From the NCBI RefSeq assembly GCF_007747995.1, contig NZ_CP036276.1:3773001-3837000 (forward strand): a stretch of DNA of 64,000 bases, read 5' to 3'. The position numbers were made by a program, and so were the translations under genes. The DNA comes from Symmachiella dynata (lineage in GTDB: Bacteria > Planctomycetota > Planctomycetia > Planctomycetales > Planctomycetaceae). How positions within the stretch are numbered: position 1 is the stretch's first letter; the number at the start of each line of letters is the position of its first letter. Positions 17,985 through 35,898 of this stretch are shown piece after piece. The notes beneath the pieces are model-generated. The model saw only the letters and a program-made list of their open reading frames with translations. It did not search any database and had not been told where the DNA came from.

Positions 17985-19805
17985 ATGAAAATTTCATACT
18001 TCAAGATTGAGAATTTCCGAAACATTCGGTTTGCCGAATGTGAGAATCCACCTGATTTCGTTGTCATCTGCGGTGGGAATGGATGCGGAAAAAGTGCGAT
18101 TTTGCAGGCGTTGATGACGGCAAAAGAAAGAGCCGGGGCATATGGCGGATTCAATGTTGACCCACGTGCCGTAACGGCAAACGCAAGCAATGCCATTATT
18201 GAGGTTCGCATCAGTTTTTCTGAAAGCGAACGTACTTGGTACCAAGAAAACCACGGGAAGGAATGTCCAGAATTTGATAATGTGATTATCAACATTTCTA
18301 CCGGTGGCCAGGGACGTGCGACCAAACGTTCAGATTTTACTCGGACATTACTAAGCACATTTTCACGAAAATACAAAGGTTCTCCGGGTTTTTTTGACTA
18401 CATCGATGCACATCGCATTCATGACAAGAAAGAAGTGTCGACGTGGGACGCGTCCTCCTTAAGTGAGGAACGGGTTAAGCAAACCTTGGGGGCAAGTGGT
18501 CGCGAGAAATTCCAATTTACTAAGGAGTTTTTGGCATCAAAGGTGCTGCGCGATTTGCAGTTATTGCAGGCAGCTCACCGGCAGAATAAAGGAACCAAGG
18601 TGCTGATGGATTCCGTGGCGCCAATTCAAAGGTTTTTCAATCGATTCTTTTCGCCTATGGAGTTTGTTGATGTTCGGATCGATACGTCACCATTTCAATT
18701 CATAATCCGTACACCTCACGGTGACATTGACATCGACGACTTGAGCGCGGGTGAGAAAGAAATCCTGAACACGTATATACGATTTCACCAACTTCAACCG
18801 CGTGACGCCGTTATATTGTTTGATGAGGCAGACGCGCACTTGCATCCCGATTTGGAACGTCGGTACTTGCAGGAGCTTCGCACGATCGGTGAGGGGAATC
18901 AGGTATGGCTGACAACTCATTCTCCAGAGATGATGATTGAAGCGGGTAGCGAGTCGCTTTATACCGTGTTAAAGGAGCCCCCAAGTGAGGGCCAGAATCA
19001 GTTTGTCCGCGTCACCTCCAGCGAGGAATTACACACGGCACTGTCAGAACTCATGGGGTCACGTGGGTTAGTTAGTTTTAATCAGCACATCGTGTTCATT
19101 GAAGGAACCGATGCCTCAACTGATCGTCGCCTTTACGAACGGTTTTACCCGCCGAATGAGTACAACATTAGTTTTGTGCCGGCCGGTGATTCGCGCGTGA
19201 TCGGACGGGTAGCCGAGCGAGTCAACCAGCTTCTATCTGAAAGCATCGGTTTTCAACAGTTTCATGCGATCGTCGACGGCGATTTTGAACGTGCTGTGCC
19301 TGATCCCCCTGATGGGCGCCTACACCGTTTGCCGGTGTATCATGTCGAAAACTTTCTGTTGGACGAAAACATAATTTTGTCGGTGCTAAGTGAGGTATTA
19401 TCCGAGCGATGTCCGTATGAGGACGAAGATTCTATGGTGTCGAGTTTGCACCAATTGATGGTGGAAGATGCTCACTTAATGCCGTTCGCTAAAGCGGTGC
19501 TTGACTCTGACCGGGCCAGGAAAGCAAGGGAAGTACGCGACGCGATTTTTTCAGGCAACGACGATCAATCCATCGAAAAAGGGTTTGAATCGTATGCGGA
19601 GGCTTTGGCGGAAGCACGCTCTATCCTTGAAGGTGCTATTTCAGACGACACGTGGAGGTCTAGGTGTAAAGCACGCGACTTGTTGAGAGCACTTTGTGGC
19701 AAACATGGGATCAACTACGAACATTTTCGCAATCTGGTCATTAGCCGAATGGATGGACCGCCGCCTGGATTGCAAGCAATCATCGGCAAAATCCTTGAAT
19801 CGTAA
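17985..19805 (+). CDS. ABC-type ATPase with C-terminal TOPRIM/DUF4435-like domain
   Basis: A 606-residue protein starting one base after the methyltransferase stop. Residues ~1-340 form an SMC/ABC-like ATPase: ICGGNGCGKSAIL (Walker A, ~28-40), DLSAGEKEILN signature (~250), VILFDEADAHLHP (Walker B) and WLTTHSPEM. Residues ~365-480 show a TOPRIM/DUF4435-like fold: VFIEGTDASTDRRLYERF, AIVDGDFE and YHVENFLLDE. This domain order occurs in OLD nucleases, Gabija GajA and fused PARIS proteins, all anti-phage. With a UvrD-like helicase two genes downstream the resemblance to Gabija is notable, but the DUF4435-like part fits PARIS better; the assignment is open. Confidence 0.8.
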   Translation: MKISYFKIENFRNIRFAECENPPDFVVICGGNGCGKSAILQALMTAKERAGAYGGFNVDPRAVTANASNAIIEVRISFSESERTWYQENHGKECPEFDNVIINISTGGQGRATKRSDFTRTLLSTFSRKYKGSPGFFDYIDAHRIHDKKEVSTWDASSLSEERVKQTLGASGREKFQFTKEFLASKVLRDLQLLQAAHRQNKGTKVLMDSVAPIQRFFNRFFSPMEFVDVRIDTSPFQFIIRTPHGDIDIDDLSAGEKEILNTYIRFHQLQPRDAVILFDEADAHLHPDLERRYLQELRTIGEGNQVWLTTHSPEMMIEAGSESLYTVLKEPPSEGQNQFVRVTSSEELHTALSELMGSRGLVSFNQHIVFIEGTDASTDRRLYERFYPPNEYNISFVPAGDSRVIGRVAERVNQLLSESIGFQQFHAIVDGDFERAVPDPPDGRLHRLPVYHVENFLLDENIILSVLSEVLSERCPYEDEDSMVSSLHQLMVEDAHLMPFAKAVLDSDRARKAREVRDAIFSGNDDQSIEKGFESYAEALAEARSILEGAISDDTWRSRCKARDLLRALCGKHGINYEHFRNLVISRMDGPPPGLQAIIGKILES

Positions 19806-20605: not shown

Positions 20606-22678
20606 ATGGAATTTCGCATCTCCGACACCTTCACTGCCAGCTTGGCCAAGTTGAACGCCGCCGAACAAAAGGCGGCCAAGACGACCGTGTTCGATTTGCA
20701 GGTCGATCCCAAGAACCCGGGGATGAGTTTCCACCGGATCGACAAATCCAAGGACGACAATTTTTGGTCGGTCCGTGTCAGCCGGGACATTCGGATCATC
20801 GTACACCAAACCGCCGCCAGCTTGTTGATGTGCTACGTCGACCACCACGACGACGCGTACCGTTGGGCGGAGCGTCGCAAAGTGGAAGTCCACCCCAAGA
20901 CCGGAGCAGCGCAACTAGTAGAAGTCCGGGAGCGGGTCCAAGAAATTACAGTGCCGGTCTATGTCGAGGTCGAGCAACCGGTGCCGGAACTTCCGCCGCT
21001 GTTTGCCGACGTGCCACCGGATGACTTGTTGAGCTACGGCGTGCCACCCGAGTGGCTCGACGATGTCCGCACGGCCACCGAGGACACGCTGTTTGAATTG
21101 TCCGAACACCTACCGCACGAGGCAGCGGAGGCATTGCTGCAATTGGCCACCGGCGCGAAGCCCATACCGCTGCAGGAAGCCACCGCCGGAGCCGACCCAT
21201 TCGCGCACCCAGATGCGCAGCGACGATTCCGAGTGATGACCAATGTGGAGGAGTTGGAGCGGGCGCTGGAATACCCTTGGGAAAAATGGACCGTCTTCCT
21301 GCATCCCGGCCAACAGGAATTAGTCGAACGCCAGTTCAACGGCCCCGCTCGCGTTTCGGGTTCAGCGGGAACCGGCAAAACGATAGTGGCACTCCACCGT
21401 GCCGTCCACCTCGCCCGTCAGCACCCGGAAGCGAAAGTATTGTTAGCGACCTTCTCAGCAACGCTGGCGCGGTCCCTGGCGGCCAAGTTGGTGGTGCTGG
21501 TAGGCAATGAGCCCAAGATCGCCGACCGCATTCACGTCGAATCTACGGCGGGCATCGCACGCCAACTTTATCATGACTTAATCGGTGAGGTCACGATTGC
21601 GCCCCACACAACGATCCAGGAAATTCTCAAAACGGCTGCCACGAAAGTCGACGGGCATAAATTTTCGGATCAGTTTCTGTGGGCGGAATGGACAGAGGTC
21701 GTTGACGCTTGGCAATTGACCACCTGGGAAACCTATCGCAAGGTCACGCGACTGGGGCGCAAGACGCGGCTCAGTGAAAAACATCGCGAGATTGCCTGGT
21801 CGATCTTCGCCCAGGTTCGCGAGGAATTGGAACAACGAAATCTGACGACCATGCCGACGGTCTTCGGACGCGTGGCGGAGGCCCTGCGGGACAGCGCGAA
21901 ACTACCTTTTGATTTCGCCGTCGTCGACGAAGCCCAAGATGTCAGCGTCCCCGAATTGCGATTCCTGGCTGCACTGGGGGCCGCTCGGCCCGACGGGCTG
22001 TTTTTCACCGGCGACCTCGGCCAACGCATCTTCCAGGCCCCGTTTTCCTGGAAAGAACTCGGCGTCGACATCCGTGGCCGCTCGCGGACTCTGCGGATCA
22101 ACTACCGGACCTCGCACCAGATACGCGGCATCGCCGACCGTCTGCTGCCACCCGAAGTTTCCGACGTGGATGGCAATACAGAATCGCGCCGCGGCACGGT
22201 TTCGGTCTTCAATGGCCCCACGCCGGTCGTGCAAGTCTGCGACGACGAGTCAGCCGAAACAGCGACCGTCAGTCAGTGGCTCCTCGACCGCATCGCTGAG
22301 GGCGTCCAGCCGCACGAGGTCGGCCTGTTCGTCCGCTCGGCGGCACAACTACCGCGTGCCCAAAAGGCTGCTCGCACGGCCGCTGTGGCCGCTGTGGAAC
22401 TCGATGACGAAGTGGAAACCAAAACTGGCCACATATCGATCAGCACGATGCACTTGGCCAAGGGGCTCGAATTCCGCGCGGTCGTTGTAATGGCCTGCGA
22501 CGACGAGATATTGCCGTTGCAAGATCGCATCGAGACCGTCGCGGACGATTCCGACCTGGAGGAAGTCTACAATACCGAACGGCACCTACTCTACGTGGCC
22601 TGCACGCGGGCACGGGATCAATTGCTGGTGACGGGTGTCGAACCGGCGTCGGAGTTTTTGGATGATCTTTGCAAGTAG
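20606..22678 (+). CDS. UvrD-like helicase with N-terminal RelE-fold domain
   Basis: A 690-residue protein. Residues ~1-95 look like a RelE/YafQ-type toxin fold (FRISDTFTASLAKLNAAEQK, FWSVRVSRDIRIIVHQ, CYVDHHDDAYRWAERR). After a linker, residues ~235-690 form a superfamily 1 helicase: VSGSAGTGKTIVALHRA (Walker A), FAVVDEAQDVS, LRINYRTSHQIR, STMHLAKGLEFRAVVVMA and LLYVACTRARDQLLV. It ends the plus-strand island. The RelE part could be an active ribonuclease, a DNA-contact module or a degenerate domain; catalytic competence cannot be judged here. With the upstream ATPase/TOPRIM gene it resembles a Gabija-like nuclease/helicase pair. Confidence 0.85.
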   Translation: MEFRISDTFTASLAKLNAAEQKAAKTTVFDLQVDPKNPGMSFHRIDKSKDDNFWSVRVSRDIRIIVHQTAASLLMCYVDHHDDAYRWAERRKVEVHPKTGAAQLVEVRERVQEITVPVYVEVEQPVPELPPLFADVPPDDLLSYGVPPEWLDDVRTATEDTLFELSEHLPHEAAEALLQLATGAKPIPLQEATAGADPFAHPDAQRRFRVMTNVEELERALEYPWEKWTVFLHPGQQELVERQFNGPARVSGSAGTGKTIVALHRAVHLARQHPEAKVLLATFSATLARSLAAKLVVLVGNEPKIADRIHVESTAGIARQLYHDLIGEVTIAPHTTIQEILKTAATKVDGHKFSDQFLWAEWTEVVDAWQLTTWETYRKVTRLGRKTRLSEKHREIAWSIFAQVREELEQRNLTTMPTVFGRVAEALRDSAKLPFDFAVVDEAQDVSVPELRFLAALGAARPDGLFFTGDLGQRIFQAPFSWKELGVDIRGRSRTLRINYRTSHQIRGIADRLLPPEVSDVDGNTESRRGTVSVFNGPTPVVQVCDDESAETATVSQWLLDRIAEGVQPHEVGLFVRSAAQLPRAQKAARTAAVAAVELDDEVETKTGHISISTMHLAKGLEFRAVVVMACDDEILPLQDRIETVADDSDLEEVYNTERHLLYVACTRARDQLLVTGVEPASEFLDDLCK

Positions 22679-22718
22679 AGGTGTTGTGTCGTTGATACAT
22701 TTAACCTTGCAAAACCCA

Positions 22719-22964
22719 TGTTGAGCGGTCCAGAAAAAGCCTGCAGCAAGAGTCGCTCGATTATTTCATTGCGTTTGGTCCGAACCACTTCGACAATCTA
22801 ATCTCGGAGTACGTCGAGCATTACCACACGGAGCGGCCGCATCAGGGGGGGATGTGCCGTTGGCAGGTGATTTCTGCGAGGGTCAGGGTACTAAATCCGA
22901 TGCTGTGGTTTGTCGGACACGGCTTGGCGGCGTGTTGCGGTACTATGAAAAGCCAGCAGCGTAA
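22719..22964 (+). pseudogene. Truncated integrase-type transposase remnant
   Basis: The DNA encodes [20 protein letters not shown] and [14 protein letters not shown], then after a frame change [18 protein letters not shown] and a TAA stop. This is the last quarter of the same transposase family as the gene at 7071-8129, in the opposite orientation. The N-terminus and two of the three catalytic positions are gone. It closes the right side of the restriction/defence island. Confidence 0.85.
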
Positions 22965-23039
22965 AGTAGACGAGCACTCCATTCTGGAATTGGTGTCCAG
23001 CATGGATATGATAATATCCATGCTTCACCAGCTAATTGC

Positions 23040-24365
23040 TCAAAGTCTAAATTCGGCAACGCTGAGTTGAGGTTTATCCGACCGACCGAAATGCAACGCC
23101 CCAAATAACGTACCGTCAGGTAAGATGCTACCAGAGAACCAAGCTGGCCATTCGCTTGACTCTCGCAACATGCTTTTCCTATCCGGCTGAAAGTCGGCAT
23201 CGGCATCGACAATGATGTCCTCCACGCTTCTCAGAATACTCACGTCAATTCCCATGATTGGTACGTCGACGTTCACCCCAGGGTAAGAACGAATCAATGC
23301 CAGAAATACGTTCCACTCAATCAGTGCGAGCCCAAGCGCCTTCATTTCACTTTTTGTAACAATGGCGAATGATTCCTCTCCAAAACTAATCACAACTAGG
23401 TGTCGAGCTGATGTGTCGGTTGTTTGGGCAGATCGGAGCGCCATTCCGGCCCCGACAAGGCCCATACCGATCAGCCACGCTCCATAATTGCCTCGTCGAA
23501 TCCAGTCATTTCGAAATGGCACTGTTTCATCAGCCGTTGCATCTGTTTCCGGATCTACAAACGCGAGAAGTGACGAATCCGGATACGGGTCGGCCTCCTC
23601 CCTCAAGTAAAGGCCGACTGCAAATAGTTTTTTCGGTTGCGGAGAAATCAAATTAGCCCAAGCATCTACTTGCTCAAGTCCCTCGGCAAGATTTTGTTTG
23701 ACCATTTTGGGGCTGGAGTCCGGAGGAACAAACGCACCTTTTGCCTCCGCCAATGCAACCACCCCCTGGCCAGTCTCAAAAGCAAAATCCGGCTCCTTCT
23801 CCGGTGTCTTCCTCTTGAAACGTTTCTTGATCAACTGAGCGAACTGAACTTGCTCGTTATGTGAAATGCGGACATCATTCATCGCGCGTTCAAGGAGCGA
23901 TGGAATATGATCCCAATATATATACCCTTGCTGGAGCATGAAGAGATATGTTGCCGCTTCCCCAAATCGACCTGCCAATGCAGTGCGTGACGAGTCCTTG
24001 CGTGAAAATATCCCACTCCGACGAAGTCGCAGAGTCTCACCAGACCATCGCAAAAGAGACGCCGTCTGAAACGCGATTCCCAACGCGCCCATTTTGACTG
24101 CATCTTCATCAAATGAGCCGGCCAATTCAGTCTTGGCTGCTGCATGGTAAAACTGCCAAGCTTCAATTGGTAACTCGGTTTTCGCATGTCCAAGACAGGT
24201 CGTCGCCAACGCGCTATCATCGTTCGGCCATTTCTGCGGCGATCTGACAATTCGCCTATTAGGGGTTGAGACCGCTGATTTCTCCAGTTCAACAATTGGT
24301 ACGGTCGACGAACCGCGGGGTAATTGAGGGCCTAGTACCTCAAGCATTCGTAATGTCTCGCACAT
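23040..24365 (-). CDS. Unknown protein with PD-(D/E)XK-like motif
   Basis: A 441-residue protein I do not recognise as a named family. Residues ~190-215 contain [11 protein letters not shown] followed by [14 protein letters not shown], which has the spacing and flanking strands of a PD-(D/E)XK nuclease core (P-D ... E-x-K). The rest is mixed alpha/beta with a hydrophobic Gly-rich stretch ([18 protein letters not shown]). GAGGA precedes the ATG. It lies 234 bases downstream of the giant TPR gene on the same strand, so the two probably share a transcript. As an inference it may be the DNA- or RNA-cutting effector, with the TPR protein as sensor. The gene is more AT-rich than the restriction island beside it. 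Confidence 0.6.
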
Positions 24366-24599
24366 CTAACATGTCCTCGCAGAAGTGTCATTGCTTCATT
24401 ACCATTGTCGCGCGATCTCGAATAAGTCGGAGCGTTATCAGACGAGATCACGACCAAAGTCGCGAGATTCAGAGATGCGTACAAAGGACGCATTCTCGAA
24501 CTGGACCGCCGAGGCTCATCGACTTTCTACGATGGATGCATCGGTTCACTAATAGAACACCACGCCATTTCTTGTAATAGACACATTCGAACCACCAAT

Positions 24600-27500
24600 T
24601 TAACGGCGTAGTGAAGCGAGGGTATCACGTATTCTGGCGGAAACAAATGGCGGAGCCCATCTGGCGACTTCCTGGAAATGCGTTCGCCACAACTCAAACT
24701 GCTCACGCGTATATTGCGAATGGCTACCACCAAGTGGACGTCGCAACAACGCCGGAGCTTCTCCAGCAGTAGCGGCAACGATGCTAAAAGCTAAGAGTTT
24801 CTGTCGACGTTCCTCTGGCATTTCCGCTGTTAGCGCAGTATCCAAATATGCATTAGGAAGTAGCACATCCCATGAATCACGGAATCGAGCCTGCACCTCG
24901 CCAAAGAAGTCCGCGACATCAACTAATGCGTCGCTATCCATTTTTGAAAGAGTATCGCGATACCAATCTGCCGACTCGAGTAGTCTAGCAACATCTTGAT
25001 GCGGAAACACGCCGGTGTACGATATCGAATGTAGCAAACTTGAAACAAATCGTTGGCTCATCGTTTCTAGCTGTGAAATCCCTTCTAGCGACTTGATGGC
25101 CCATTCGTCTCCATGCGTGAGTTCCGTTGCGTCAATTGCTGATTCCAGAAGTTTTCTTGCCGAAGCATTCGTTAACTCCTTAGCAACCATTACAGACACG
25201 GACACCGCTGACTCATTGTGAGCCCAGATGTTATTTGATTTATTAGCCTGCCCCGAATCGAATCGTAGGCAACCCACCGTCAGAAGATCCGCGAGACATC
25301 GTTGTTGCGCGCCGCTTAGATGTCCAACACCAAGACTTGATGCTTGGCAAAGCGACAAGGCAAGAGCATAAGGCCAACTGGCAGGATGATGAAGTGCGAT
25401 ATGTCTTGCCTGAGACGACTCGCGGCTAGGCCGAGCCACTTCCCACGCCAACTGAGTTGCGAAAGCCAACTGTCTTATATCGTCACGAAATGCCGTCAGC
25501 GTTTCGTCACTGCTCCCATAATCATCGATAACATCGGACACTTGCGCTCCGGCCCAATAAGAAAGGCACAACAATTGTTCGTTCGGGAGAAATGGCGCAT
25601 GAAGCTCGAAATGACGCAGAAAATGCTGCGTGAGATTGTTTCGAATCTCCCAAAGGTACGTTGAAACATCGTGATTAGACTCTTTTCTGGCAACATTTAG
25701 AACTTTAAAACACTCCGACCAAAACTCATCTTGACGCTGTTTTGGGATCAGGGATGGGTTCTCAGCAAAGGCTCGGCATGCGTGATAGCGACGAAATATA
25801 GTTCGCCTCTCTTTGACCCAATTCCATACCGTCTTCCATACCGCCGTGCTATTCGCCGACTCGCACCATTGCTTTAGTAGCCCTCCCATTGAGAATGGAA
25901 TACCCAATGGCAAGTGTCCAAACCTCACCTCGTAGGCATCCAACGTTTTTGCGAGAGAACTGTGGTCAACGAGGCGACCAAACATTCTAACACATTGTTT
26001 GGCTGTGCGACCGTCACCATGGACTGCACAAAGGTGTTGAACGTCGGGCCGAAGTACTTTGCCCCAGTGATAGTCGCAATTTTCATTTAATGAAGCATGC
26101 AAGCTTTGACGGAGCGCGCTGATCTGAATTTTAAAATCACCGGCGAGACAGTCCTGAATTCTACACGCGACGGGAAACCAGGTTATAAACTCATCGGAAG
26201 TCGAGGACTCGCTACCTACGTTAATCGTCTCCTTGGAGTATGGCGATAGAGGGCATTCGCCCGAATCTTTGATAAACGTGATCGCAGCACTCCTCGCTTC
26301 CTTGCTTGGTGCGACCAAGAAATCCGGAACGAATTCAGCATACCGCGCCTTACTTCGAGTCTGATCGCGATGTTGGAAGAACACGTATGGGCCTGGCTCG
26401 GAAATCGGACTTCGTTTCGAACTTGATTGGATGGCGGATATCACCGCCTCGTCTGGCGTTGGCAACTCCTGGCCCTGATCAAGGATGCCGAGGTGCTCCG
26501 CGAGAAGACATGATCGCACGCCTTGAATACGCCCGTCGCGAATCAGGCTGATTAGAAACATACGTTGCTGGTAAGCAAGCTGAAGTTCCTCTTCGTCCTG
26601 GAGACTATTCGTTTCGACCGTAAGAATATGACTGACAACTGATTCGAAATCTCTTTCTGTTATGCCAATTAAGTCTGACACGGCTTTTACGGCGGCCTTT
26701 GCCGTTAACAGGTCGTCAATATCACACGCTCGTACCAGAAACGCCGCGAGAAATGTCTCGACCGAGCTTTCTGCCAATTGGAAACGCCCCGATGTTGGCA
26801 AATTACGTGGGGGGGTGGGCAGGCACTCCGAAACAATCCACTCTGTGAGCGTAATCCGTTGTTTCTCGTCCAATTCCTTCAGATTCCACACTTGTGCTGC
26901 AAACTCGGCCCAACGGCCCAGGGACTGTATGTAATAATGAAGCGCTACGCTCGTGGCCGGCTCGGTTGGCTCTTTGCCCGCCAGCAGACCACAATCTCTC
27001 ATACAGTCATGCATGTACTGACTGATTTCAACCAATGGATCATTTATGCCATGATAGCGTCGGACAAAATCCAACAAGACCGTCGCATCCGGGAGCAAAA
27101 ACCGGTATCGCCATCGCACGAGTTGCAGAAATGCGTCAGCAAATTGTTCACTGGAAATCTTGCCTTCCTGATACATCCGTTTGATAACGCAATCAGTGCT
27201 GCAAGCGGTAGTTTCAACATTCGATGTGTCATTCATTACGCCCATCAAACAGAACCGATCGTCAGCCACCAGGGGGATTTTCTCCTGGAGTGCTAAAAGC
27301 ACGCCATCGATCATCCATTTTCGCTGGCGTTCGCTTTCGTCGACTGGGGCTCCGGAATCGTCGTCGGATTCGTTGGACGGAGATGTAATGACAGCCTTAG
27401 CCGTAATTCGGTCGTTGTTTAACCACGCCGCTCCAAGGCTTTCGTTGAGCTCGGCCATTTCTTGGTCGAAGCGAAAACGGTCGATTTCGTGCCTAATCTT

Positions 27501-30500
27501 TTCGTAACAAACGTCGGTGATACAAAGAGCCATCTCTCGAAGAAGTGGTTCCAGACAGCCGGAAGTGTGCAAGAGAAAAATCGCGGTCTCATCAATCATC
27601 ACCTCACGGGAAGCCATAGCTTCTGCAAATCCCTCACGTGCCGTGTCTTCTGTTCGGCTCTGCTGGATGTTTTCGACAACGCCCAAGTCAATTTTGCCAT
27701 TTGCGAAGAGCCAACGGGCAATATCCAAGGGGCGAAACACTGATCCTGAGCGAGTCAAGCCATCCTTTTCGGAGACGAGTGTGATACCATCACTCGAATC
27801 GGCCGATTTGATCGTTACGCGTGAATTTGGCAATTGGATCTGTTCTATGATTGCTTCGAGTGCCGTCCATTGAGACTGTTGCCCCGATTCCAGCATCGCT
27901 TGATCACGCAATCGCTTCTTATCATACTCGTCCGGATATAAGATCGTGCCAAAAAAGGAGGCCGCAACATCCAATAGGTTGAGTTGGTGAAGTGTGATCA
28001 AAGCTGACAAATCCATTACGACTCGCTGTTCGGGTGGCGGAGCTTGAATATCGACAAGGGTGCTCACCTGATCGCCGGCCTCACGAACAGCAAACGCATT
28101 TGTCGCGTAGATGGAATATTCGGCATATGTTTCAGGAGTTGTAAACAACGCTCCTGGTTGAGTGCGGATCTTCCAGATTTTACAAACTGGCGCATGGGCA
28201 ACTTCGCTTACGATCGTCCAGGGAGATCGTGCTTCGATTAATAATTTGTTCAATCGCTCGAACGCGTCCCATCGCGCTTCCAAAAGAGCTTTGATGTCAT
28301 CAGGCGCTACGGCATGGAGGACCCGTTTTTTTGCTGTTCCGTCCTCCTGTAATTCCAATATACGTTGCATCGCGCGTCCAGCAGCGGCATCTTGGCCCAC
28401 TTCATAGCCCAGCCCCATGTAAACCGCAAGGAATTCGACATCGTCCCAAAACTCTTCTCGAACGCCGTAGAGCGAATCAAATGCGGCCCCTTTCTGACGA
28501 CTGATTCTCAATAGACGCGCGCGCTGCAGTACCGCGTCGCGATAGTGGGGCTCACGTTCGCAAATGTCCGCACATAATTCAATTGCCGTCGAGACGTCGC
28601 CAGCAAGTGCGAATTCGCCGGACGCTTCGACTAAGTATTTGTGTCGCGTCGGGACTAGATTAGCTAATTGGACCAGATTGTCTGCCGCGCTTCGATGACG
28701 TCCAAGTCGCACATATCCAAAAGCAAGATTGTGACGTGCGTTGATATTTGTTGGTTCAAGAACCACGACTTTTTCGAGGCACTCAACCATTTCCTCAATA
28801 CGGTCAGTTTCAGATAGTGCCATGGCGGCCTCATACCAGACGCTACCCCGACGACAGAACTGGGTCGCTTCCAGCAAGTCATTTGCGGCCTTGTTGAGGT
28901 CACCAAGCATGCGATGAGTGTCAGCTGAATACCTCAACCATTCCGGCTCAGTTCGATTCTCTTCCTCATCCAGCATTCTCCGTGCTTCTTCCGCTTCACC
29001 ACGCCGAAGACACGACTGGACTCCAAGTAACCTATGCCTTGGATGTTCGGCTGGAAGATATTTTTTACAAAGTGCTACCACCACATTGAACCGCACGATA
29101 TCGTCTTCAGCGACGACATCGGACATTAGTCCGATTATCCGATCTTGGCTCTGGTCATCTTTGGCAAATGGCAAAACACGACGAGCGTCGTCAAAAACCC
29201 TTATCGGTAGCTTTCCCAAGAAAATGAGATCAATCAGGACCGCAAGAAACTGTGCTTCAAATGACCGTGGGTGATCTTTGCGTAGATCTGCCGGAAGCGA
29301 TTCTGACGGTGCTATGTCGCGCCGCATAACTGCGTGTGCTACGGCAATCGGAATTGGGCGACATCTTGCCAATATATTGGCAAGATCGCGGCATTCATTC
29401 TTCTGGCCAATTATGTGATGAGCGAGACATGCGTAACCAAGTGCATCCACCTCAAGTCCATTTGAGGGTTTTCCAACGGCAAGGGGACGGGCAATGACAC
29501 GCTGAAGTGAGTCAATTGCTTTTGTAATGTCGGCCCGAATACCGTCCTTCACGTCAAGGGATGTCGTAATACCATCAGGGTGCCCAATCTTGTAGTGCAA
29601 GAGAATTGAGTGTGCAAAAGCCACATTGCATTGATCTGCAACGCGATCGTTAGCATTTTCATTCGCCCAATTTAACGCATTGAGGCCGTCATCTAATCGT
29701 GCGGCATTAATGAAGGCTACGATTGCCTGCTCAATCCACTTTTCATGATAGGGAGCCGTTGACGCTAAATCTGCCGCTTCCACATTTTTTTGTAGGTCGA
29801 GGTTCATTGCCAATCGAGTTGACAGAATTGCGGGCTCAAGCGAGTCTTCCAACATACTGTTAGCTTTATCCGAAAATCCTCGGAGATATTCCAACTTTGC
29901 GTCGAGAGCTATGACTCGGGCTTCGCTCTCGCTGTCGGAATGGTCCACCTCGTCTTTTGCCCGGTCCAAATGCTTTTGAGCTTCGGACAAATCGAGATTT
30001 CGCTTTTCGTTAGGGTGGATCATCTCTAATAATGAAAGATGAGCCAACAAAACGTGTGCCTTCGATCGAAGATTTGGCGTTAGGCGATCCCCACTGTGAT
30101 CAAGCCATTGTTTAAGGCCCTTTCCCTTCTGAATTGCCGCTGTCGAATTGCGTAGCGCCAATTCCTCCTGAATCTCATCCCATCGCGTCTCTAATTGGCT
30201 ATCGACGAACTGGCGTTCGCGATTGGAAAGGCGGATATTTTCGCCGATGAGGTAGTCAAAGTGCTCAATTTCCTGGGGCGCCAACGCTTCCTCATTCGTG
30301 ACAGTGTCCCGCCGTTCAATCGTCCTCACAGACTCTACAATCTTCCCCTGGCCAGCAAGAAGCTGATATAGAATGCCTTGGATTTCGGTGTGTTCGGCCA
30401 CATCGCCCTGGCGAGCAATGATTAAAAATTGAGCGAGGAGTTCACTATCCTTGGAAATGACAAATTCAATTGCACCACATACAACCCGACCAATCGTGTT

Positions 30501-30845
30501 TTGCACTTCTCGGATCTTATCATCGTTCCGTGATACATACGATAGCATGACCAACTGCTGCTCAATCAAAAACCTTCCGACCGCTGAAGGCTCATTTTCC
30601 GCGCAGAGTTTAAACAGAGATTTGAGATGTCCGGCCTCTAAGACATCTCGTCGAACTTGCGGAACCCCATCGCAGATTGTCTTGACATCCGTATCAGAAC
30701 GAAACTTCTGATTGATCACTCTGGCCAGGTTAGCTTGGCGAAGTCGCTTTATTGCCATGTCCCATGCCACACCTATTGTTTTAGTCACAACAGTGCTGCC
30801 AAGCAATTTAAATACTGGCCACAAGACTATTCCGTCTGCCATCAT
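24600..30845 (-). CDS. Giant TPR protein with central PIN-like domain
   Basis: A 2081-residue protein in one uninterrupted frame. After a short hydrophobic N-terminus the first ~900 residues are helical with TPR-like units (for example AMALSETDRIEEMVECLEKV and NARHNLAFGYVRLGRHRSAA). Around residues 940-1200 three acidic clusters fit a PIN-like nuclease: VVMDLSALITLHQ, VMIDETAIFLLHTSG and IPLVADDRFCLM. The remaining ~850 residues are helical and unassigned. AAGGTAGG precedes the ATG. PIN domains usually cut RNA; TPR scaffolds often sense partners. A neighbouring PD-(D/E)XK-like gene follows on the same strand. I know no named system with this pairing. The PIN call rests on motif spacing only. 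Confidence 0.7.
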   Translation of the reverse strand: MMADGIVLWPVFKLLGSTVVTKTIGVAWDMAIKRLRQANLARVINQKFRSDTDVKTICDGVPQVRRDVLEAGHLKSLFKLCAENEPSAVGRFLIEQQLVMLSYVSRNDDKIREVQNTIGRVVCGAIEFVISKDSELLAQFLIIARQGDVAEHTEIQGILYQLLAGQGKIVESVRTIERRDTVTNEEALAPQEIEHFDYLIGENIRLSNRERQFVDSQLETRWDEIQEELALRNSTAAIQKGKGLKQWLDHSGDRLTPNLRSKAHVLLAHLSLLEMIHPNEKRNLDLSEAQKHLDRAKDEVDHSDSESEARVIALDAKLEYLRGFSDKANSMLEDSLEPAILSTRLAMNLDLQKNVEAADLASTAPYHEKWIEQAIVAFINAARLDDGLNALNWANENANDRVADQCNVAFAHSILLHYKIGHPDGITTSLDVKDGIRADITKAIDSLQRVIARPLAVGKPSNGLEVDALGYACLAHHIIGQKNECRDLANILARCRPIPIAVAHAVMRRDIAPSESLPADLRKDHPRSFEAQFLAVLIDLIFLGKLPIRVFDDARRVLPFAKDDQSQDRIIGLMSDVVAEDDIVRFNVVVALCKKYLPAEHPRHRLLGVQSCLRRGEAEEARRMLDEEENRTEPEWLRYSADTHRMLGDLNKAANDLLEATQFCRRGSVWYEAAMALSETDRIEEMVECLEKVVVLEPTNINARHNLAFGYVRLGRHRSAADNLVQLANLVPTRHKYLVEASGEFALAGDVSTAIELCADICEREPHYRDAVLQRARLLRISRQKGAAFDSLYGVREEFWDDVEFLAVYMGLGYEVGQDAAAGRAMQRILELQEDGTAKKRVLHAVAPDDIKALLEARWDAFERLNKLLIEARSPWTIVSEVAHAPVCKIWKIRTQPGALFTTPETYAEYSIYATNAFAVREAGDQVSTLVDIQAPPPEQRVVMDLSALITLHQLNLLDVAASFFGTILYPDEYDKKRLRDQAMLESGQQSQWTALEAIIEQIQLPNSRVTIKSADSSDGITLVSEKDGLTRSGSVFRPLDIARWLFANGKIDLGVVENIQQSRTEDTAREGFAEAMASREVMIDETAIFLLHTSGCLEPLLREMALCITDVCYEKIRHEIDRFRFDQEMAELNESLGAAWLNNDRITAKAVITSPSNESDDDSGAPVDESERQRKWMIDGVLLALQEKIPLVADDRFCLMGVMNDTSNVETTACSTDCVIKRMYQEGKISSEQFADAFLQLVRWRYRFLLPDATVLLDFVRRYHGINDPLVEISQYMHDCMRDCGLLAGKEPTEPATSVALHYYIQSLGRWAEFAAQVWNLKELDEKQRITLTEWIVSECLPTPPRNLPTSGRFQLAESSVETFLAAFLVRACDIDDLLTAKAAVKAVSDLIGITERDFESVVSHILTVETNSLQDEEELQLAYQQRMFLISLIRDGRIQGVRSCLLAEHLGILDQGQELPTPDEAVISAIQSSSKRSPISEPGPYVFFQHRDQTRSKARYAEFVPDFLVAPSKEARSAAITFIKDSGECPLSPYSKETINVGSESSTSDEFITWFPVACRIQDCLAGDFKIQISALRQSLHASLNENCDYHWGKVLRPDVQHLCAVHGDGRTAKQCVRMFGRLVDHSSLAKTLDAYEVRFGHLPLGIPFSMGGLLKQWCESANSTAVWKTVWNWVKERRTIFRRYHACRAFAENPSLIPKQRQDEFWSECFKVLNVARKESNHDVSTYLWEIRNNLTQHFLRHFELHAPFLPNEQLLCLSYWAGAQVSDVIDDYGSSDETLTAFRDDIRQLAFATQLAWEVARPSRESSQARHIALHHPASWPYALALSLCQASSLGVGHLSGAQQRCLADLLTVGCLRFDSGQANKSNNIWAHNESAVSVSVMVAKELTNASARKLLESAIDATELTHGDEWAIKSLEGISQLETMSQRFVSSLLHSISYTGVFPHQDVARLLESADWYRDTLSKMDSDALVDVADFFGEVQARFRDSWDVLLPNAYLDTALTAEMPEERRQKLLAFSIVAATAGEAPALLRRPLGGSHSQYTREQFELWRTHFQEVARWAPPFVSARIRDTLASLRR

Positions 30846-31174
30846 CGCCTACCTTTATTGCGATTCCAGTTGTGTTTCTTAGACGCTTTAATGGTACACA
30901 TCATTCGATTGCAACGCACGTCATCGTGTTACGGGGTATTGGGAATATGTGCCTTTCCCGAGTTCGATACAAAGATGCAGAGTTGGTAATGCGCCAATCG
31001 CACTTCTATCCAATGAAAGGGACTATGTGCGATGATAAGCAATGATGGTCGAGCGTCTGAGAAAGTCGTTGTTCGGACAACTCAAATTATTGGGGAAGTC
31101 TAAGCAGGATTCTACTCGTCGCGGTTCGCGACTCGATGGTAACCGCTACATTCTCGCTGGCAGCCTTTCAAGCC
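30846..31174. other. Intergenic region upstream of the giant TPR gene
   Basis: No gene is seen. The stretch is AT-rich and presumably holds the promoter of the minus-strand TPR gene. It ends at a terminase relic. Confidence 0.45.
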
Positions 31175-31335
31175 GCGTCAAAGACAAAATCCCGCGCTTG
31201 TCCTTTACGCTCGTACAAGGGGCCTGCGTGCTTGCCCGGTCTAACCCGATGAGCAATGTCACTATCCCATCGATCCGCTCGACGCAGTTTGTTTCGACGG
31301 CTTTCAGTTGTCGGCGGCAGCGGTTTCGATAGCAT
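31175..31335 (-). pseudogene. Decayed C-terminus of phage terminase large subunit
   Basis: The minus strand, with frame breaks, reads like the last ~50 codons of the terminase at 32751-34367 (the stretch from SKKKSVERIDG through DRASTQDLC to KRG). Nucleotide similarity continues past the stop codon into the downstream flank (GCGTCAAAG at both places), so the relic came from a copy of the same module and not from the present gene alone. Confidence 0.8.
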
Positions 31336-31534
31336 TATTCCTTGAAATCCAACGTTTTTGCGGAGGGTTAAGAGCCCGAGCGAAGAAAACTCGATGCCTG
31401 AAATATCTCCGACAGTGAAAGTTGCATTTTCTGCAGAGTGATCTCGTGGCATAATGCAGGGTCGACTTTGGCGGCGTTCGGACGCAGATTGGATTGCTTG
31501 TTTCAGCGACGTAACGTCACGGTAAAGTCACGAT

Positions 31535-32506
31535 TCATTTTGACGCAAGTTGCTTCATTGTTTCTATGACCTTGCGTGCTTTGCCCTGTGCTTCTCCGCC
31601 AATGTTCAACGCAATTATTTGGCCACCACGGAGATTTTGCTTTCCTGATCCAGTGACGCGGAATGTATTCGCAGAACCTTCTTCAATGTTCAAAGAGCAC
31701 GACACACCGCTCCACGACCCCCAACTCATTCCAGTTTGAAAAGTCACGAGTCCTAAGGCGTCATTCGCTTGGTCCAACTTCCACCCGAGTTCCTGGATAG
31801 CGCGCATCGCCAGCTTGACCATCGACGTCATCGTACCAGAAAATAAACCGGAATTCGGATCATAGCGGACGATGGTGGGTATTTGTTGTTCTGGTGTCGT
31901 TGTCTCATTGATCGGACAACCGCAACCTGGACACTGGCCGGCACGTTTGGAGACCGATTTTCCACAATCCGGGCAATTTATCAGATTCGTCCCTGCAGCT
32001 GAGGGAGGTAGTTTAGTAGGGGTCGGCGGTGGCATCGGAGAGTCAATTAACGTGAATTGGACCACCCGCTTACACTTTGGGCAATTGTTTGGACGGCCTA
32101 AATGTGAAGATTTACCGCGAACCGTCGCGCTACACAACGGGCACCGCATTCGTACTTCATGTTCACTTTGGCTTGCGCTAACTGAGTTTTTGTTTCGATG
32201 TTCCTCGGATTCTTGATCACCAGCGACCGTCTGTTTCGGCTCCTTTTTTATTTTGGATCTCTGGCGTTTTTCTTCTTTCTTTCGCTCTTTTTCTTTCAGC
32301 AGGGTATTGCGTTGTTTGTCAATTTCCGACAGCGCGGTAGGCGAGATGCGAAAAGGTTGTTTGCATTCTGGACACCAATCTTCCTCTTGGATTTCCGCTT
32401 CGCTAGATCGAAGTTCGGAACTGCAATGTGGACAATTGAAACGGACTTGATATTTGCCGAGCAGAGTTTTTGTGATCTCGTATGAATTCACGAATGAGTC
32501 GCTCAT
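31535..32506 (-). CDS. Multi-zinc-ribbon protein of unknown function
   Basis: A 323-residue protein with three C4 zinc ribbons: FNCPHCSSEL/WCPECKQPF (~20-50), MRCPLCSATV/NCPKCKRVV (~115-150) and NCPDCGKSVSKRAGQCPGCG (~175-195). A charged Lys/Glu-rich coil separates the first two. The last ~110 residues form an alpha/beta domain (ELGWKLDQANDALGLVTFQT ... RKVIETMKQLA). GGAG upstream of Met at 32506 makes this the likely start; an open frame extends further upstream. It lies downstream of the terminase where a portal gene would be expected. Zinc ribbons suggest nucleic-acid or protein binding. The C-terminal domain is not recognised. Confidence 0.7.
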   Translation of the reverse strand: MSDSFVNSYEITKTLLGKYQVRFNCPHCSSELRSSEAEIQEEDWCPECKQPFRISPTALSEIDKQRNTLLKEKERKKEEKRQRSKIKKEPKQTVAGDQESEEHRNKNSVSASQSEHEVRMRCPLCSATVRGKSSHLGRPNNCPKCKRVVQFTLIDSPMPPPTPTKLPPSAAGTNLINCPDCGKSVSKRAGQCPGCGCPINETTTPEQQIPTIVRYDPNSGLFSGTMTSMVKLAMRAIQELGWKLDQANDALGLVTFQTGMSWGSWSGVSCSLNIEEGSANTFRVTGSGKQNLRGGQIIALNIGGEAQGKARKVIETMKQLASK

Positions 32507-32750: not shown

Positions 32751-34367
32751 TCAAAGCGAAAGAATTCCCCGTTTGTCATACACGCTGGTGCACAAGTCCT
32801 GCGTGCTCGCCCGGTCCAATCCCATGACCAGCGCCACAATGCCGTCGATCCGCTCAACACTCTTCTTTTTCGACGGCTTCCAGTTATCTGCCGCGTCAGT
32901 TTCGATCGAGACGTTGCCCGCCATCCACCGCAACACCGGGTGCCCAGCGTGGGCGAGTTTGCAGCTCAGTACCACCTCTTCGAGCTTCTTCGTCGGCGCG
33001 CTCATGCTGGCGTAGCCTTGGCCGAAGGCGATCATCTCGAAGCCATCGCCTTCCAGTTGTGTCGCCAACTGCGTGGCGTTCCAGCGGTCGATGGCGATTT
33101 CGCGGATCTCGAACTGTTCGTTCAGCTCATTGATCCGCCGACGGATCACGTCGTAGTCGACCACTTCACCGGACGTCGCCTCCATGTGGTCGTCCCGTAT
33201 CCACTGCACGTACGGCACGCGGTCGCGGCGTTCACGTTTGCGGGCGCCTTCTTCGGGAACCCAAAAGTACGGTAGAACATCGAACCGCCCTTCGTCCTCA
33301 TCCGGAAAGACCAGCACCAGCGCCGAGACGTCGGTCGTGGACGAGAGGTCCAACCCGGCGAAACAGACTCGCCCACGCAAATCCTCCAGCGGTGTCCCGC
33401 AAGCATCCCATTTGTCCATGCTCAGCCAACGTACGTCTTGCTCGGTCCATTGGTTGAGGCGGTAACGGCGGAACGAGTTTTCCTTGGCGGGAGATTCTTG
33501 AGCTTCCGTGCAATCCTCAGCAAACTGATCCGCGTTGATTGTGATCCCAAAACTGGGGTTGGCTGTTTTCCAGACGTTGGGATCAGTCCAATCCGCCTCA
33601 TCATTGGCCGCAGCCACGAATGGAAAGAACGACGTATCCTCAATCGTGCCGTCGAGCACCTTGAGTGCGTAGTCGTGTTGTTCCCAGCAGATTGAGTGTC
33701 GGTCGTAACCGGCGGTGGTGATCGCCAATTGCAACGGTTGCCGCCGCGATGCCCCCGCATTACGAAGCGTGTCCCACAGATCTCGAGTCCGTTGGGCGTG
33801 CAGTTCGTCAATCAGCACCGCATGTGCGTTGAGACCCTCCTTGGCTGGGACGTCGGCGGACAGCGCTTTGTAGAACGACCGCGTGCGGTGATACACGATC
33901 CGCTTGGTAGAACGTACCACCTTCAAACGCCGGGAGAGGTCGGGCGATTCGTCGACCATGTGTGCCGCTTCGCCATAGACAATTGAAGCTTGATCCCGGT
34001 CGACAGCGGCGGAGTAGATCTCCGCGCCCGGTTCGTTATCGCCCACCAGCAGGTACAGGCTCAGTCCGGAGAAGAGCGTGCTCTTGCCGTTCTTTTTGGG
34101 GACCTCGATATATCCTCGACGGAACCGCCGCGTGCCATCGGGACGCTTCCAGCCGAATAGCGGAGCAACGACCTCTTGCCATTGCCATTCCAGCAGGTCG
34201 AACGGTTGACCCGCCCATTGCCCTTTGGAATGCCTGAGGAACTTGCGGAAGAACGTGCGAACGCGCTCGGCAGCCTGGAGGTCAAACCAGCAGCCATCAG
34301 CAACGGCCCGCTCGTCGGCGGTCGTGCATATCCAATCCGAAGTCAGCGATTCAACCTCACGCGGCAT
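32751..34367 (-). CDS. Phage terminase large subunit
   Basis: A 538-residue DNA-packaging motor. The ATPase part has Walker A VPKKNGKST (89-97), Walker B AVLIDELHA (183-191), and a coupling region around LAITTAGYDR (215-224). The nuclease part has FAGLDLSSTTDVSAL with Asp340 as a likely metal ligand, further acidic residues around IAIDRW, and a C-terminal KKKSVERIDGIVALVMGLDR stretch. It starts inside the stop codon of the small subunit, so the two are coupled. Length is normal and the gene looks intact, yet no portal, protease or capsid gene follows; a zinc-ribbon gene does. Two decayed copies lie elsewhere in the window. Confidence 0.95.
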   Translation of the reverse strand: MPREVESLTSDWICTTADERAVADGCWFDLQAAERVRTFFRKFLRHSKGQWAGQPFDLLEWQWQEVVAPLFGWKRPDGTRRFRRGYIEVPKKNGKSTLFSGLSLYLLVGDNEPGAEIYSAAVDRDQASIVYGEAAHMVDESPDLSRRLKVVRSTKRIVYHRTRSFYKALSADVPAKEGLNAHAVLIDELHAQRTRDLWDTLRNAGASRRQPLQLAITTAGYDRHSICWEQHDYALKVLDGTIEDTSFFPFVAAANDEADWTDPNVWKTANPSFGITINADQFAEDCTEAQESPAKENSFRRYRLNQWTEQDVRWLSMDKWDACGTPLEDLRGRVCFAGLDLSSTTDVSALVLVFPDEDEGRFDVLPYFWVPEEGARKRERRDRVPYVQWIRDDHMEATSGEVVDYDVIRRRINELNEQFEIREIAIDRWNATQLATQLEGDGFEMIAFGQGYASMSAPTKKLEEVVLSCKLAHAGHPVLRWMAGNVSIETDAADNWKPSKKKSVERIDGIVALVMGLDRASTQDLCTSVYDKRGILSL

Positions 34368-34831
34368 CAGCCCGCCTCCAGGAACAGATCGAACTCATCA
34401 ACCGTACCGGAACCTTCGGGTAATTTGATCCGACTGCGGCTACTGGGCGTGAGGCCGAACTCGACCATCAGCTTCCGCATCGCCTCCATGGCCTGATCCG
34501 CAACGGTCAGATACGGACTCTTCATCGGGAATCCCTTGGCGGGTGATTTTACGATCGTGCCGTATTTTTTGACTTGCTCTTCAGCATGCACCCACCGTGA
34601 ATAGGCCACGCAGTAAGCTGCCAGCGCCGAGCGATCGGCCAATGTCAGCAGGCCCATGTCTATGAGCACTTTCGCCGTGCGGAACCATTCGGCGCGAGTC
34701 ACATCGTCAAGATGCTCCGGGCAGTCGGGCACCTCGGGGGGAGCATGCGGTTCGCGAGCATTGAGCGGTCGCTTACCCGGATTCCCCTCTAATGTTTTCA
34801 ATGCTGTTGGCTTTGGTTTGCGACCTCGCAT
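34367..34831 (-). CDS. Phage terminase small subunit, P27 family
   Basis: A 154-residue protein starting with MRGRKPKPTALKTLEGNPGK, the hallmark N-terminus of P27-type small terminases, followed by a helical core (LADRSALAAYCVAYSRWVHA, and the LMVEFGLTPSSRSR segment near the end). It recognises phage DNA for packaging with the large subunit. The start at 34831 is chosen because it gives the family N-terminus and has GGAAAG upstream; the open frame extends 21 codons further. Its TGA overlaps the terminase large subunit ATG by one base. Confidence 0.93.
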   Translation of the reverse strand: MRGRKPKPTALKTLEGNPGKRPLNAREPHAPPEVPDCPEHLDDVTRAEWFRTAKVLIDMGLLTLADRSALAAYCVAYSRWVHAEEQVKKYGTIVKSPAKGFPMKSPYLTVADQAMEAMRKLMVEFGLTPSSRSRIKLPEGSGTVDEFDLFLEAG

Positions 34832-34969
34832 GACATGCTTTCCAGCATCAAATTGATACGAATTGATGCGAAATGATGCTTTACCCAGCTTCACACCCCC
34901 CGGTCTCTAATTTCGCGGAAAAACACGCATCGTTGGCGATGTGGTATGGGGGGTTGAGTCCTTAGGGAT

Positions 34970-35407
34970 CTAAGGTACCCCCCTTAGGGACCCGGTCATC
35001 TTTCCACAGGCAGCGACCCGGTCAGCATTCGGCGCGGTGACCCCGGCCGCATACTTCCGTTTGTCCTCATCCGTTTTCAACTTGTGATGCCGACGGCAGC
35101 ACGTCCGTAGGTTGTCGAGATCGAGCCGCAAGTCGGGACGAACGTCGATGGGAATGATGTGATCGACTTCCAGGTTCCGCGTATTGACCACGCCGTCGTC
35201 GAGGCAGTCCTCGCAATAGGGATGCCGCTTGATATGAATGCGCCGCACCTTCCGCCAACGTTCGTCGTACCCGCGCTGCGCCGGGGTGCTACGTCGCTCG
35301 TCCGACCAGCGGTGCGATGCCTCGCGGCGGTGCGTATCGCAGAACCGGTCCCGCGTCGTGTTGGGACAACCGGGATGGCAGCAGCGGGTCTTGAGCTTGG
35401 CGGGCAT
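34970..35407 (-). CDS. Phage HNH endonuclease
   Basis: A 145-residue HNH nuclease. An N-terminal Cys/His zinc site (CCHPGCPNTTRDRFCDTH) is followed by RGYDERWRKVRR, the CEDCLDDG pair, LEVDHIIPI (HNH His) and LDNLRTCCRRHHKLKT. Such genes sit directly upstream of terminase small subunits in many tailed phages, where the HNH protein aids genome packaging or cos cleavage; the order here is the same. The start at 35407 is supported by GGAGGA. Confidence 0.93.
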   Translation of the reverse strand: MPAKLKTRCCHPGCPNTTRDRFCDTHRREASHRWSDERRSTPAQRGYDERWRKVRRIHIKRHPYCEDCLDDGVVNTRNLEVDHIIPIDVRPDLRLDLDNLRTCCRRHHKLKTDEDKRKYAAGVTAPNADRVAACGKMTGSLRGVP

Positions 35408-35519
35408 GCGAACGTCCTCCGTAGAAACCACTGCAGACATTCTATGCGGCGTGCCACGTGGATAAAGACCGAATCAATGCCAATCACAACCAACGTCGAA
35501 AATCATTCCGTATCTAGCG

Positions 35520-35708
35520 TTAGGCCGCAGAAAAACTTTCGATCTCCACCTCGTACGCGACAATTATCCGCCCACAACTAGGGCAACGCTTGCGGCGACG
35601 TATCCGCCCGTTGGGTAGCGGTTCGGAATTGGTCGTAAAGAAATGCCCTCTACCGCACCGGGGGCACGTGAGGCCACGTGGGGCGTTGTCGTTGTTCCCG
35701 TTGTCCAT
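35520..35708 (-). CDS. Small zinc-ribbon protein
   Basis: A 62-residue protein with one zinc ribbon: CPRCGRGHFF and RKRCPSCGRIIVAYE, resembling the zinc ribbon of NrdR-like proteins. GGAGG lies upstream of the ATG. It is similar in layout to the protein at 39962-40153. Role unknown, probably nucleic-acid binding in the phage-like element. Confidence 0.72.
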   Translation of the reverse strand: MDNGNNDNAPRGLTCPRCGRGHFFTTNSEPLPNGRIRRRKRCPSCGRIIVAYEVEIESFSAA

Positions 35709-35898
35709 TGCTCAAGCCTCCGCGTTTGGTAGCGCCGTGGGGCCCGTGTTCGCCCCGAATTCTTTTCAGCGAAATCCTGTGTAATTCTACCAGATGTGGC
35801 TGGATGTCCGTTCTGGATCGAGGTAACTGACTGTCCTGTCGGTGGCCGCGTTGGCTGCCGCATAGACACGAACCCCATAACTCGAAAGGGACGACACG

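Follow-up and report, generated by a model that had tools for sequence, protein, structure and literature searches.

The described system that comes closest to the locus analysed here is the TPR-GreA/B-C-PIN conflict system (Pfam family PF20698), which, according to the available text of its description, combines a variable effector with a constant core, and whose anti-invader activity is a prediction in the published work too (Kaur et al., 2021, eLife; PMC8195603). A second point of comparison is the Pfam family PF24407 (HTH_upst_double_PIN), for which a paper was not found among the literature matches listed. The window analysed, a stretch of 64,000 nucleotides of the Symmachiella dynata contig NZ_CP036276.1, encodes a giant protein of 2081 residues, and the gene for a 441-residue protein follows it on the same strand. 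The original prediction regarded the arrangement as belonging to no named system. This is half right: the core of the giant resembles both of these families, and a paper on the form with a double PIN and a C-terminal module was not found among the matches listed in a partial literature collection.

Architecture of the Giant Protein

The giant is encoded by an uninterrupted frame with an ATG start and has a full-length homologue in the genome G088 (37.8% identity over 2096 columns); its 2081 codons and this homologue together exclude a chance frame. The frames, coordinates and motifs reported earlier for the TPR protein and its 441-residue neighbour were confirmed, and the features are collected in Table 1. 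The front of the giant is now set at residues ~1–130, because the following stretch is shared with the fused protein of the locus L042.

Table 1. Features of the giant gene and of the neighbouring gene; positions are those of the window.
Feature	Positions	Strand	Remarks
Giant CDS, 2081 aa	24600..30845	-	Variable front, helical/TPR repeats, linker, tandem PIN-type units, all-helical C module
Variable front, residues ~1–130	30456..30845	-	Common to G088 only; without Pfam match
Residues ~131–345	29811..30455	-	Common to G088 and the fused L042 protein; constant region begins here in fused members
Repeat scaffold, residues 346–820	28386..29810	-	TPR matches at ~609–792; model helical from 640; 346–639 by alignment only
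Linker, residues 821–935	28041..28385	-	PF24407 region in relatives (5/9, the window protein not among them); conserved IYATN-type motif
PIN-type unit 1, residues 936–1072	27630..28040	-	D945, D1041 in 9/9
PIN-type unit 2, residues 1073–1265	27051..27629	-	D1195, D1196 in 9/9; D1218 in 8/9; first-strand acid degenerate
C-terminal module, residues 1420–2081	24603..26588	-	All-helical model; encoded by its own overlapping gene at 5 other loci
Intergenic gap, 234 bp	24366..24599	-	Separates the giant and 441-aa genes; scan listed no promoter- or terminator-like site here
441-aa protein, PD-(D/E)XK-type motif	23040..24365	-	ATG frame; contains EPDFAFE; neighbour, judged outside the giant's system
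D193...E207-x-K209 motif of the 441-aa protein	23739..23789	-	Q232 further on; invariant in 6/6 aligned

In the AlphaFold2 model of residues 640–1420 (mean pLDDT 80.9, pTM 0.62), TPR-like helices come first and are followed by two successive strand-helix units. Three PIN-type acidic clusters had been placed at ~940–1200. The PIN type is supported, but the clusters most likely belong to two tandem units rather than three: one would be strand 1 of unit 1 (D945), and unit 2 would account for the others with its degenerate first strand (~1077–1083) and its ADDR strand (D1195, D1196). The structural check suggested with that prediction yielded two modelled units, but did not confirm the PIN fold: TPR and other helical-repeat structures filled the 50 Foldseek matches listed of 1405, so that the fold is neither confirmed nor refuted. 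A search of PDB sequences with unit 2 gave three matches, with E-values of 0.03 or worse, which we judged to be chance, and the model of the C-terminal module had no PDB match at E ≤ 0.001.

Inspection by eye indicates that unit 1 keeps the acids of the first and last strands and is missing the DD of the fourth, and that unit 2 keeps those of the fourth and last strands without the conserved first-strand Asp. Since neither has the full canonical acid set, one or both of the units may be inactive.

Distribution and Relationships of the Core

The core was found at nine distinct loci, every one of them assigned to Planctomycetota, and is present at near full length in 7 of the 392 genomes of the phylum; this count leaves out 49 further genomes in which the matches were confined to the TPR stretch, just as a further 21 of this kind were left out of an earlier search. 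Searches of genome contigs with the single giant, of viral contigs with the core and of plasmids with the giant returned no relatives. Asp945, Asp1041, Asp1195 and Asp1196 are kept in all nine cores and Asp1218 in eight, and this conservation across divergent members suggests selection for metal binding.

Three features connect the giant family with the TPR-GreA/B-C-PIN system: an exchangeable N-terminal part (five kinds at seven loci), a TPR repeat region and a PIN of the PF20698 type. The PF20698 profile matched all nine cores at E ≤ 0.1 (best 1.9e-9; window 6.1e-6), although the match of the window protein covers only profile positions 1–38 of 138 and its scores, 24.2 and 27.0 bits, lie under the Pfam curated cut-off of 27.8. 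In the genome-wide search, PF20698 reached E ≤ 0.001 in only two of the seven core genomes (G089 and G518), in neither case above the cut-off, and a sub-cut-off match also appeared in one control archaeon. In hhalign comparisons against two canonical PF20698 PINs, unit 2 aligned over 171 columns (92%) and unit 1 over 37 (88%); the alignment of the two units with each other spanned 68 columns (76%). When the giant family was aligned by hhalign with canonical TPR-GreA/B-C-PIN members, only the PIN part was aligned.

The published system has one PIN, whereas the giant family has two PIN-type units, and it adds a helical C-terminal module of ~660 residues, which is a separate gene in five loci. 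The GreA/B-C domain (PF01272) had no match in the nine members of the family at E ≤ 0.1, with a profile of limited sensitivity that recovered the canonical protein of G223 (4e-4) and missed that of G334; the modelled linker of the giant holds two short strands only, without room for this domain. Because GreA/B-C was not found, and because of the two PINs and the extra module, we keep the giant out of the TPR-GreA/B-C-PIN membership: it works like this system without being a member of it, and looks like a variant of the predicted TPR-PIN conflict family with a second PIN and a C-terminal module.

The PF24407 profile matched five of the nine members (best 6.9e-17), in L042 and L043 just upstream of the PIN units. 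The giant of the window was unmatched, as was the window genome at E ≤ 0.001, and a search across 101 family genomes gave a single sub-threshold match, in another genome.

Exchangeable Fronts and the C-Terminal Module

A front could be read in seven core loci, and five kinds were recognized. It is a separate DUF676 hydrolase gene in G518, a fused alpha/beta hydrolase in G197, a calcineurin-like phosphoesterase gene in G493 (PF00149, 8e-14) and a 312-residue gene with membrane segments apparent by eye in G089; the front of L042 and that shared by the window and G088 have no assigned domain kind. The alpha/beta hydrolase and calcineurin-like phosphoesterase fronts are absent from the fronts named in the available text on the TPR-GreA/B-C-PIN system, which are some of 13 (PMC8195603). 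The C-terminal modules are homologous across all nine core loci, and are either fused to the core or encoded by a downstream overlapping gene. The front, core and C-module genes overlap by 8–50 bp in four loci, lengths that rest on mechanically picked start codons.

The core loci adjoin restriction genes, recombinases and phage genes. For the window, a location beside a restriction and defence island had been claimed, and this is borne out by the restriction/methylase genes, the AriAB/PARIS-like protein, the Schlafen/AlbA protein and the UvrD-type helicase at 11–22.7 kb. A scan of positions 22600–31600 gave 5 promoter and 7 terminator sites, fewer than in shuffled sequence (means 8.5 and 9.0), and the repeat pairs across the locus were merely short or imperfect and were taken as chance.

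Proposed Function of the Giant

We infer, with a probability of roughly 0.6, that the giant is a single-chain conflict protein, probably directed against phages, that consists of an exchangeable front, a core of TPRs and tandem PINs, and a helical C-terminal module. The TPR and C-terminal helical parts would sense a cue from the invader and keep the PIN pair inactive; upon sensing, the PIN units would cut RNA, be it transcripts or tRNA, or the front would act itself or recruit an effector, or both would happen, with the result that the cell or the phage is arrested. The front of the window protein is more likely an adaptor or an autoinhibitory part than an enzyme, since it comprises ~130 residues without a recognized catalytic domain.

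PIN and TPR domains are widely used in RNA processing, which would fit a regulatory or house-keeping scaffold for this task. Such a role seems rather improbable for a core that is rare and patchy in the phylum, that exchanges its fronts for a hydrolase or a phosphoesterase and that has restriction genes, recombinases and phage genes next to it. It is also unlikely that the PIN units are catalytically dead, serving as a sensor that binds RNA or nucleotides and leaving the front as the sole effector. The incomplete acid sets of both units would fit this, but the four invariant Asp residues and the nearly invariant D1218 argue against it, and the two units may form a composite site.

The conflict protein that we favour may have a more specific form, which we advance only tentatively: a distinct, predicted three-part defence system of planctomycetes that comprises an exchangeable effector, a TPR/tandem-PIN core and a helical C subunit. 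The PIN units, each half-degenerate and complementary to the other, would jointly form one RNase centre within a single chain, and the 2081-residue protein of the window would be an end-to-end fusion of core and C subunit. If the general reading as a conflict protein is right, the giant family would be a relative of the predicted TPR-PIN conflict proteins in which a GreA/B-C domain for binding RNA polymerase is not detected and to which a second PIN and a constant helical module have been added, with hydrolases and phosphoesterases serving as its exchangeable fronts. The published model of docking to RNA polymerase could then not hold generally for TPR-PIN proteins, given a relative in which GreA/B-C was not found.

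The Neighbouring 441-Residue Protein

The original prediction joined the giant and the 441-residue protein in one defence system with two nucleases, and the genes are indeed adjacent, on the same strand and within a defence island. Nevertheless, a joint system is very improbable. Among the 392 genomes of the phylum, only that of the window carries both the core and the 441-residue protein or a relative. The 441-residue profile matched none of nine genomes with the core (8) or a remnant of the C-terminal module (1), while all three positive controls were matched, and PIN unit 2 was found in none of the five other carriers of 441-residue relatives (four genomes and one plasmid record), in a search without a positive control of its own. 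A lack of co-occurring homologues had been named beforehand as evidence against the pair, and such a lack was seen in the genomes compared, apart from the window's own. Furthermore, relatives of the 441-residue protein occur together with HmaB in three of four genomes, and the giant and its neighbour are separated by 234 bp, in contrast to the overlapping genes of the split core loci. The two are thus probably neighbours rather than a pair.

The PD-(D/E)XK-type motif attributed to the 441-residue protein stood up to alignment. As in this superfamily, the protein has D193-x13-E207-x-K209 together with Q232, and we take its D...ExK signature to be the PD-(D/E)XK catalytic motif. No significant match to a family or a solved structure was obtained, and weak ones (E 0.06–0.6) were judged to be chance.

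The protein or a relative was found in 4 of the 392 genomes of the phylum, that of the window being one of them. In three of four other planctomycete carriers, the relative sits in an Hma-type locus with HmaB, that is, in loci of the BREX-related, Hma/DUF499-centred kind treated in the available parts of PMC8565338 and PMC12839542. In G066 and G364, HmaA scored 1717 and 1952 bits and HmaB 1232 and 1583 bits, and HmaC scored 1000 bits in G066; DUF499 is present in the loci of G364 and G323, the latter being partial, at a contig end. In two genomes the gene of the relative and that of the HmaB methylase overlap by 4 bp. Unlike these loci, the gene in the window is an orphan, as neither DUF499 nor HmaB was matched anywhere in the genome. 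Its sequence suggests that the 441-residue protein is a separate, putative nuclease of the PD-(D/E)XK type; most of its relatives lie alongside Hma operons, and here it is an orphan neighbour. If this is right, a PD-(D/E)XK-type family that lacks annotation occurs in the neighbourhood of Hma operons. Viral contigs, searched with two versions of the alignment, held no relatives, and the plasmids yielded one weak relative from Pantoea (L075, 62% covered).

The Two Genes Probably Do Not Form One System

Both frames of the original prediction exist: a 2081-aa giant protein and, 234 bp downstream on the same strand, a 441-aa protein. It had been proposed that they act as one system; however, the two genes occur together in the genome of the window alone (7.77 Mb, one contig). 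A profile built from six 441-aa sequences recovered all three positive controls (the window's genome G000 and the genomes G066 and G364), and matched none of nine genomes, eight with the core of the giant (TPR and tandem PIN region) and one with a remnant of its C-terminal module. A profile of PIN unit 2, used without a known-positive run, matched none of the five other carriers of the 441-aa protein (four genomes and one plasmid record). Furthermore, G180, G323, and G364 were not among the core matches of a 392-genome phylum search, and G066 gave a TPR match only in a 170-genome order search. Several genomes are drafts, and the absences are therefore not absolute. Since unrelated defense genes gather in defense islands, adjacency in the island of one genome needs no further explanation, and the pairing claim fails.

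Relatives of the 441-aa protein were found beyond the window in G066, G180, G323, and G364, along with a weak one on a Pantoea plasmid. Residues D193, E207, K209, and Q232 are invariant in all six aligned sequences, a PD-(D/E)XK-type signature in a putative nuclease. No significant family match was obtained in four libraries; weak matches in NCBIfam (E 0.16) and PHROGs (E 0.063) were judged to be due to chance.

In G066 and G364, the relative sits between HmaA (1717 and 1952 bits, respectively) and HmaB (1232 and 1583 bits) of the DUF499-centered, BREX-related system Hma, which received its name in PMC8565338. HmaC is also found in G066 (1000 bits), while the G364 locus contains DUF499 and has the relative one gene from HmaB. 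In G323, the relative directly precedes a DUF1156 methylase, which is followed by a DUF499 ATPase; the overlap with the methylase gene is 4 bp in both G066 and G323. Among 11 genomes searched, the HmaB profile matched three (G066, G323, and G364) and was not found in G180, the window's genome or six other core genomes. PMC12839542 reports auxiliary nucleases, PD-(D/E)XK ones among them, in BREX-related DUF499 systems. On the Pantoea megaplasmid, the distant relative and the gene before it, whose product has no match in Pfam, are perhaps a two-gene cassette (see the table).

A Planctomycete Family With Exchanged Fronts

The search for relatives of the giant covered 170 genomes from the order, 392 from the phylum and, by a two-pattern scan, a collection of 84,980 species. 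The scan matched 28 stretches, five of which were confirmed, in records assigned to Planctomycetota, Gemmataceae, or Candidatus Scalindua; G088 belongs to the family of the window's host. In the phylum search 56 genomes matched at E ≤ 1e-10, with a near-whole core in only seven (G000, G088, G089, G518, G493, G243, and G197) and the TPR stretch only in the remaining 49. The order search gave 25 matches at E ≤ 1e-3, the true relatives being G088, G089, the window itself, and G038, the last with a C-module remnant that by eye adjoins a transposase-like gene; the other 21, matched by the TPR stretch only, were discarded. Scan and phylum search combined yielded nine distinct core loci: the window, G088 (locus record L044), G089, G518 (L041), G493, G243, G197 (L043), L042, and L045.

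The C modules are homologous across all nine loci (blastp against the window copy, 1.6e-12 or better), as are the cores. All parts form a single chain in the window, G088, and L042, and three consecutive genes (front, TPR-PIN core, and C) in G089, G518, and G493. A contig end interrupts the front gene of G243 and cuts L045, which retains core plus C. Neighboring genes overlap by 8–50 bp in G089, G518, G493, and G243, and by 107 bp between the fused front and core of G197 and its C gene, values that depend on mechanically chosen starts.

The fronts vary, with five kinds among seven loci: a DUF676-type hydrolase as its own gene in G518 and a similar (E 3e-7) alpha/beta hydrolase fused to the core in G197; a calcineurin-like phosphoesterase in G493 (PF00149, 8e-14); a 312-aa protein in G089 in which two membrane segments are apparent by eye; the unassigned first ~240 residues of L042, with a Mrr-like D...QxK pattern by eye; and ~130 residues common to the window and G088 only. 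Window residues ~130–345 match L042 (E 8e-14) and are therefore part of the constant region in fused members. The C module (662 residues) was modeled as all-helical except for two strands (pTM 0.82, mean pLDDT 77.9); its top PDB matches were armadillo/HEAT proteins with E of at least 1.6e-3 and low TM-scores, and "solenoid-like" is thus a description, with no claim of homology.

Tandem PIN Units and Likeness to a Known Conflict System

Pfam annotates TPRs on the giant and places PIN-TPR-GreABC near threshold at residues 943–979 (24.2 bits against a cut-off of 27.8). PF20698 was detected in all nine cores at E ≤ 0.1, with 6.1e-6 for the window and 1.9e-9 as the best value. PF24407 ("HTH_upst_double_PIN") was detected in five of the nine (best 6.9e-17), the window protein giving no match to it. 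Genome-wide, PF20698 reached E ≤ 0.001 in only two of seven core genomes (G089 and G518) and exceeded the cut-off in none, which counts against the PIN reading; 14 control genomes gave one sub-cut-off match (Methanocaldococcus jannaschii), and only G223 and G334, both with canonical TPR-GreA/B-C-PIN proteins, lay above the cut-off.

With the PIN region split in two, hhalign against a two-sequence profile of the G223 and G334 PINs aligned unit 2 over 171 columns (92%) and unit 1 over 37 (88%); the units aligned with each other over 68 columns (76%, E 2e-5), and from the unsplit core unit 2 alone aligned (83%). In an AlphaFold2 model of residues 640–1420 (six sequences, mean pLDDT 80.9, pTM 0.62), the TPR helices lead into a linker, partly of low confidence, that has two short strands; two strand-helix units then follow one another. 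Helical-repeat proteins made up the best 50 of 1405 PDB matches of this model, a search that did not thereby probe the PIN fold. Acids D945, D1041, D1195, and D1196 are kept in all nine cores and D1218 in eight. By eye, each unit lacks part of the canonical PIN acid set; therefore, activity may need both units, or be lost.

Kaur et al. (PMC8195603) describe a TPR-GreA/B-C-PIN conflict system that swaps its front against a constant core, and the planctomycete family likewise exchanges fronts on a constant core. However, profile search found GreA/B-C in none of its nine members. The same profile gave a sub-threshold match in canonical G223 and missed G334, so the test is weak alone and the model bears part of the argument. 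Because this defining feature was not found, we do not file the giant as a TPR-GreA/B-C-PIN member, although its mode of action appears similar. With the pairing set aside, the giant is a genuine and in part new form of a conflict family that is itself predicted.

Beside the demonstrated architecture, front exchange, conservation and context of this family, we propose that the TPR part and C module would sense, the PIN pair would cleave RNA, and the front would escalate the response. The DefensePredictor paper reports two PIN-containing systems that need their PIN residues for phage defense; this makes PIN effectors plausible and is no evidence on the giant's family itself.

Genomic Surroundings

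At one end of the window island is a large serine recombinase and at the other are phage genes (32.7–44.8 kb), with restriction-type, AriAB-like, Schlafen-type, and UvrD genes in between. By eye, genes resembling recombinases are also present close to the G089 core, the G038 remnant, and the canonical protein of G334. We infer that the recombinase and phage-gene surroundings fit the cargo of a mobile element. The two methyltransferase frames appear to be a split gene or the result of a frameshift.

Features of the window and of three locus records
Record	Positions	Strand	Feature	Remark
Window	8426-10096		Large serine recombinase	One end of island
Window	15089-15604, 15653-17983	+	Type III-like methyltransferase, two frames	Match successive stretches (positions 74-195 and 213-983) of a single PADLOC profile
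Window	17985-19805	+	606 aa, ATPase plus DUF4435	Top PADLOC match AriAB (PARIS-like, fused)
Window	20606-22678	+	UvrD-type helicase	Weak HigB-like toxin match near N terminus, E 0.011, sub-cut-off
Window	23040-24365	-	441-aa protein	
Window	24600-30845	-	Giant, 2081 aa	PIN unit 1, residues 936-1072; unit 2, 1073-1265; C module, 1420-2081
Window	32751-44762	-	Phage terminase large and small subunits, HNH endonuclease, ParB-like/methyltransferase, primase-like genes	Prophage-like segment adjoining defense island
L037 (G066 Hma locus)	6490-8841		Dynamin-type GTPase gene (PF00350)	Directly before 441-aa relative
L075 (Pantoea megaplasmid)	8822-10942		Distant 441-aa relative and, before it, 307-aa hypothetical-protein gene	No match in Pfam for 307-aa product
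L036 (near G089 core)	17180-17938		252-aa frame, PDIVME...YLVEAKAS	PD-(D/E)XK-like by eye; no match in Pfam; overlaps another frame resembling type I specificity subunit
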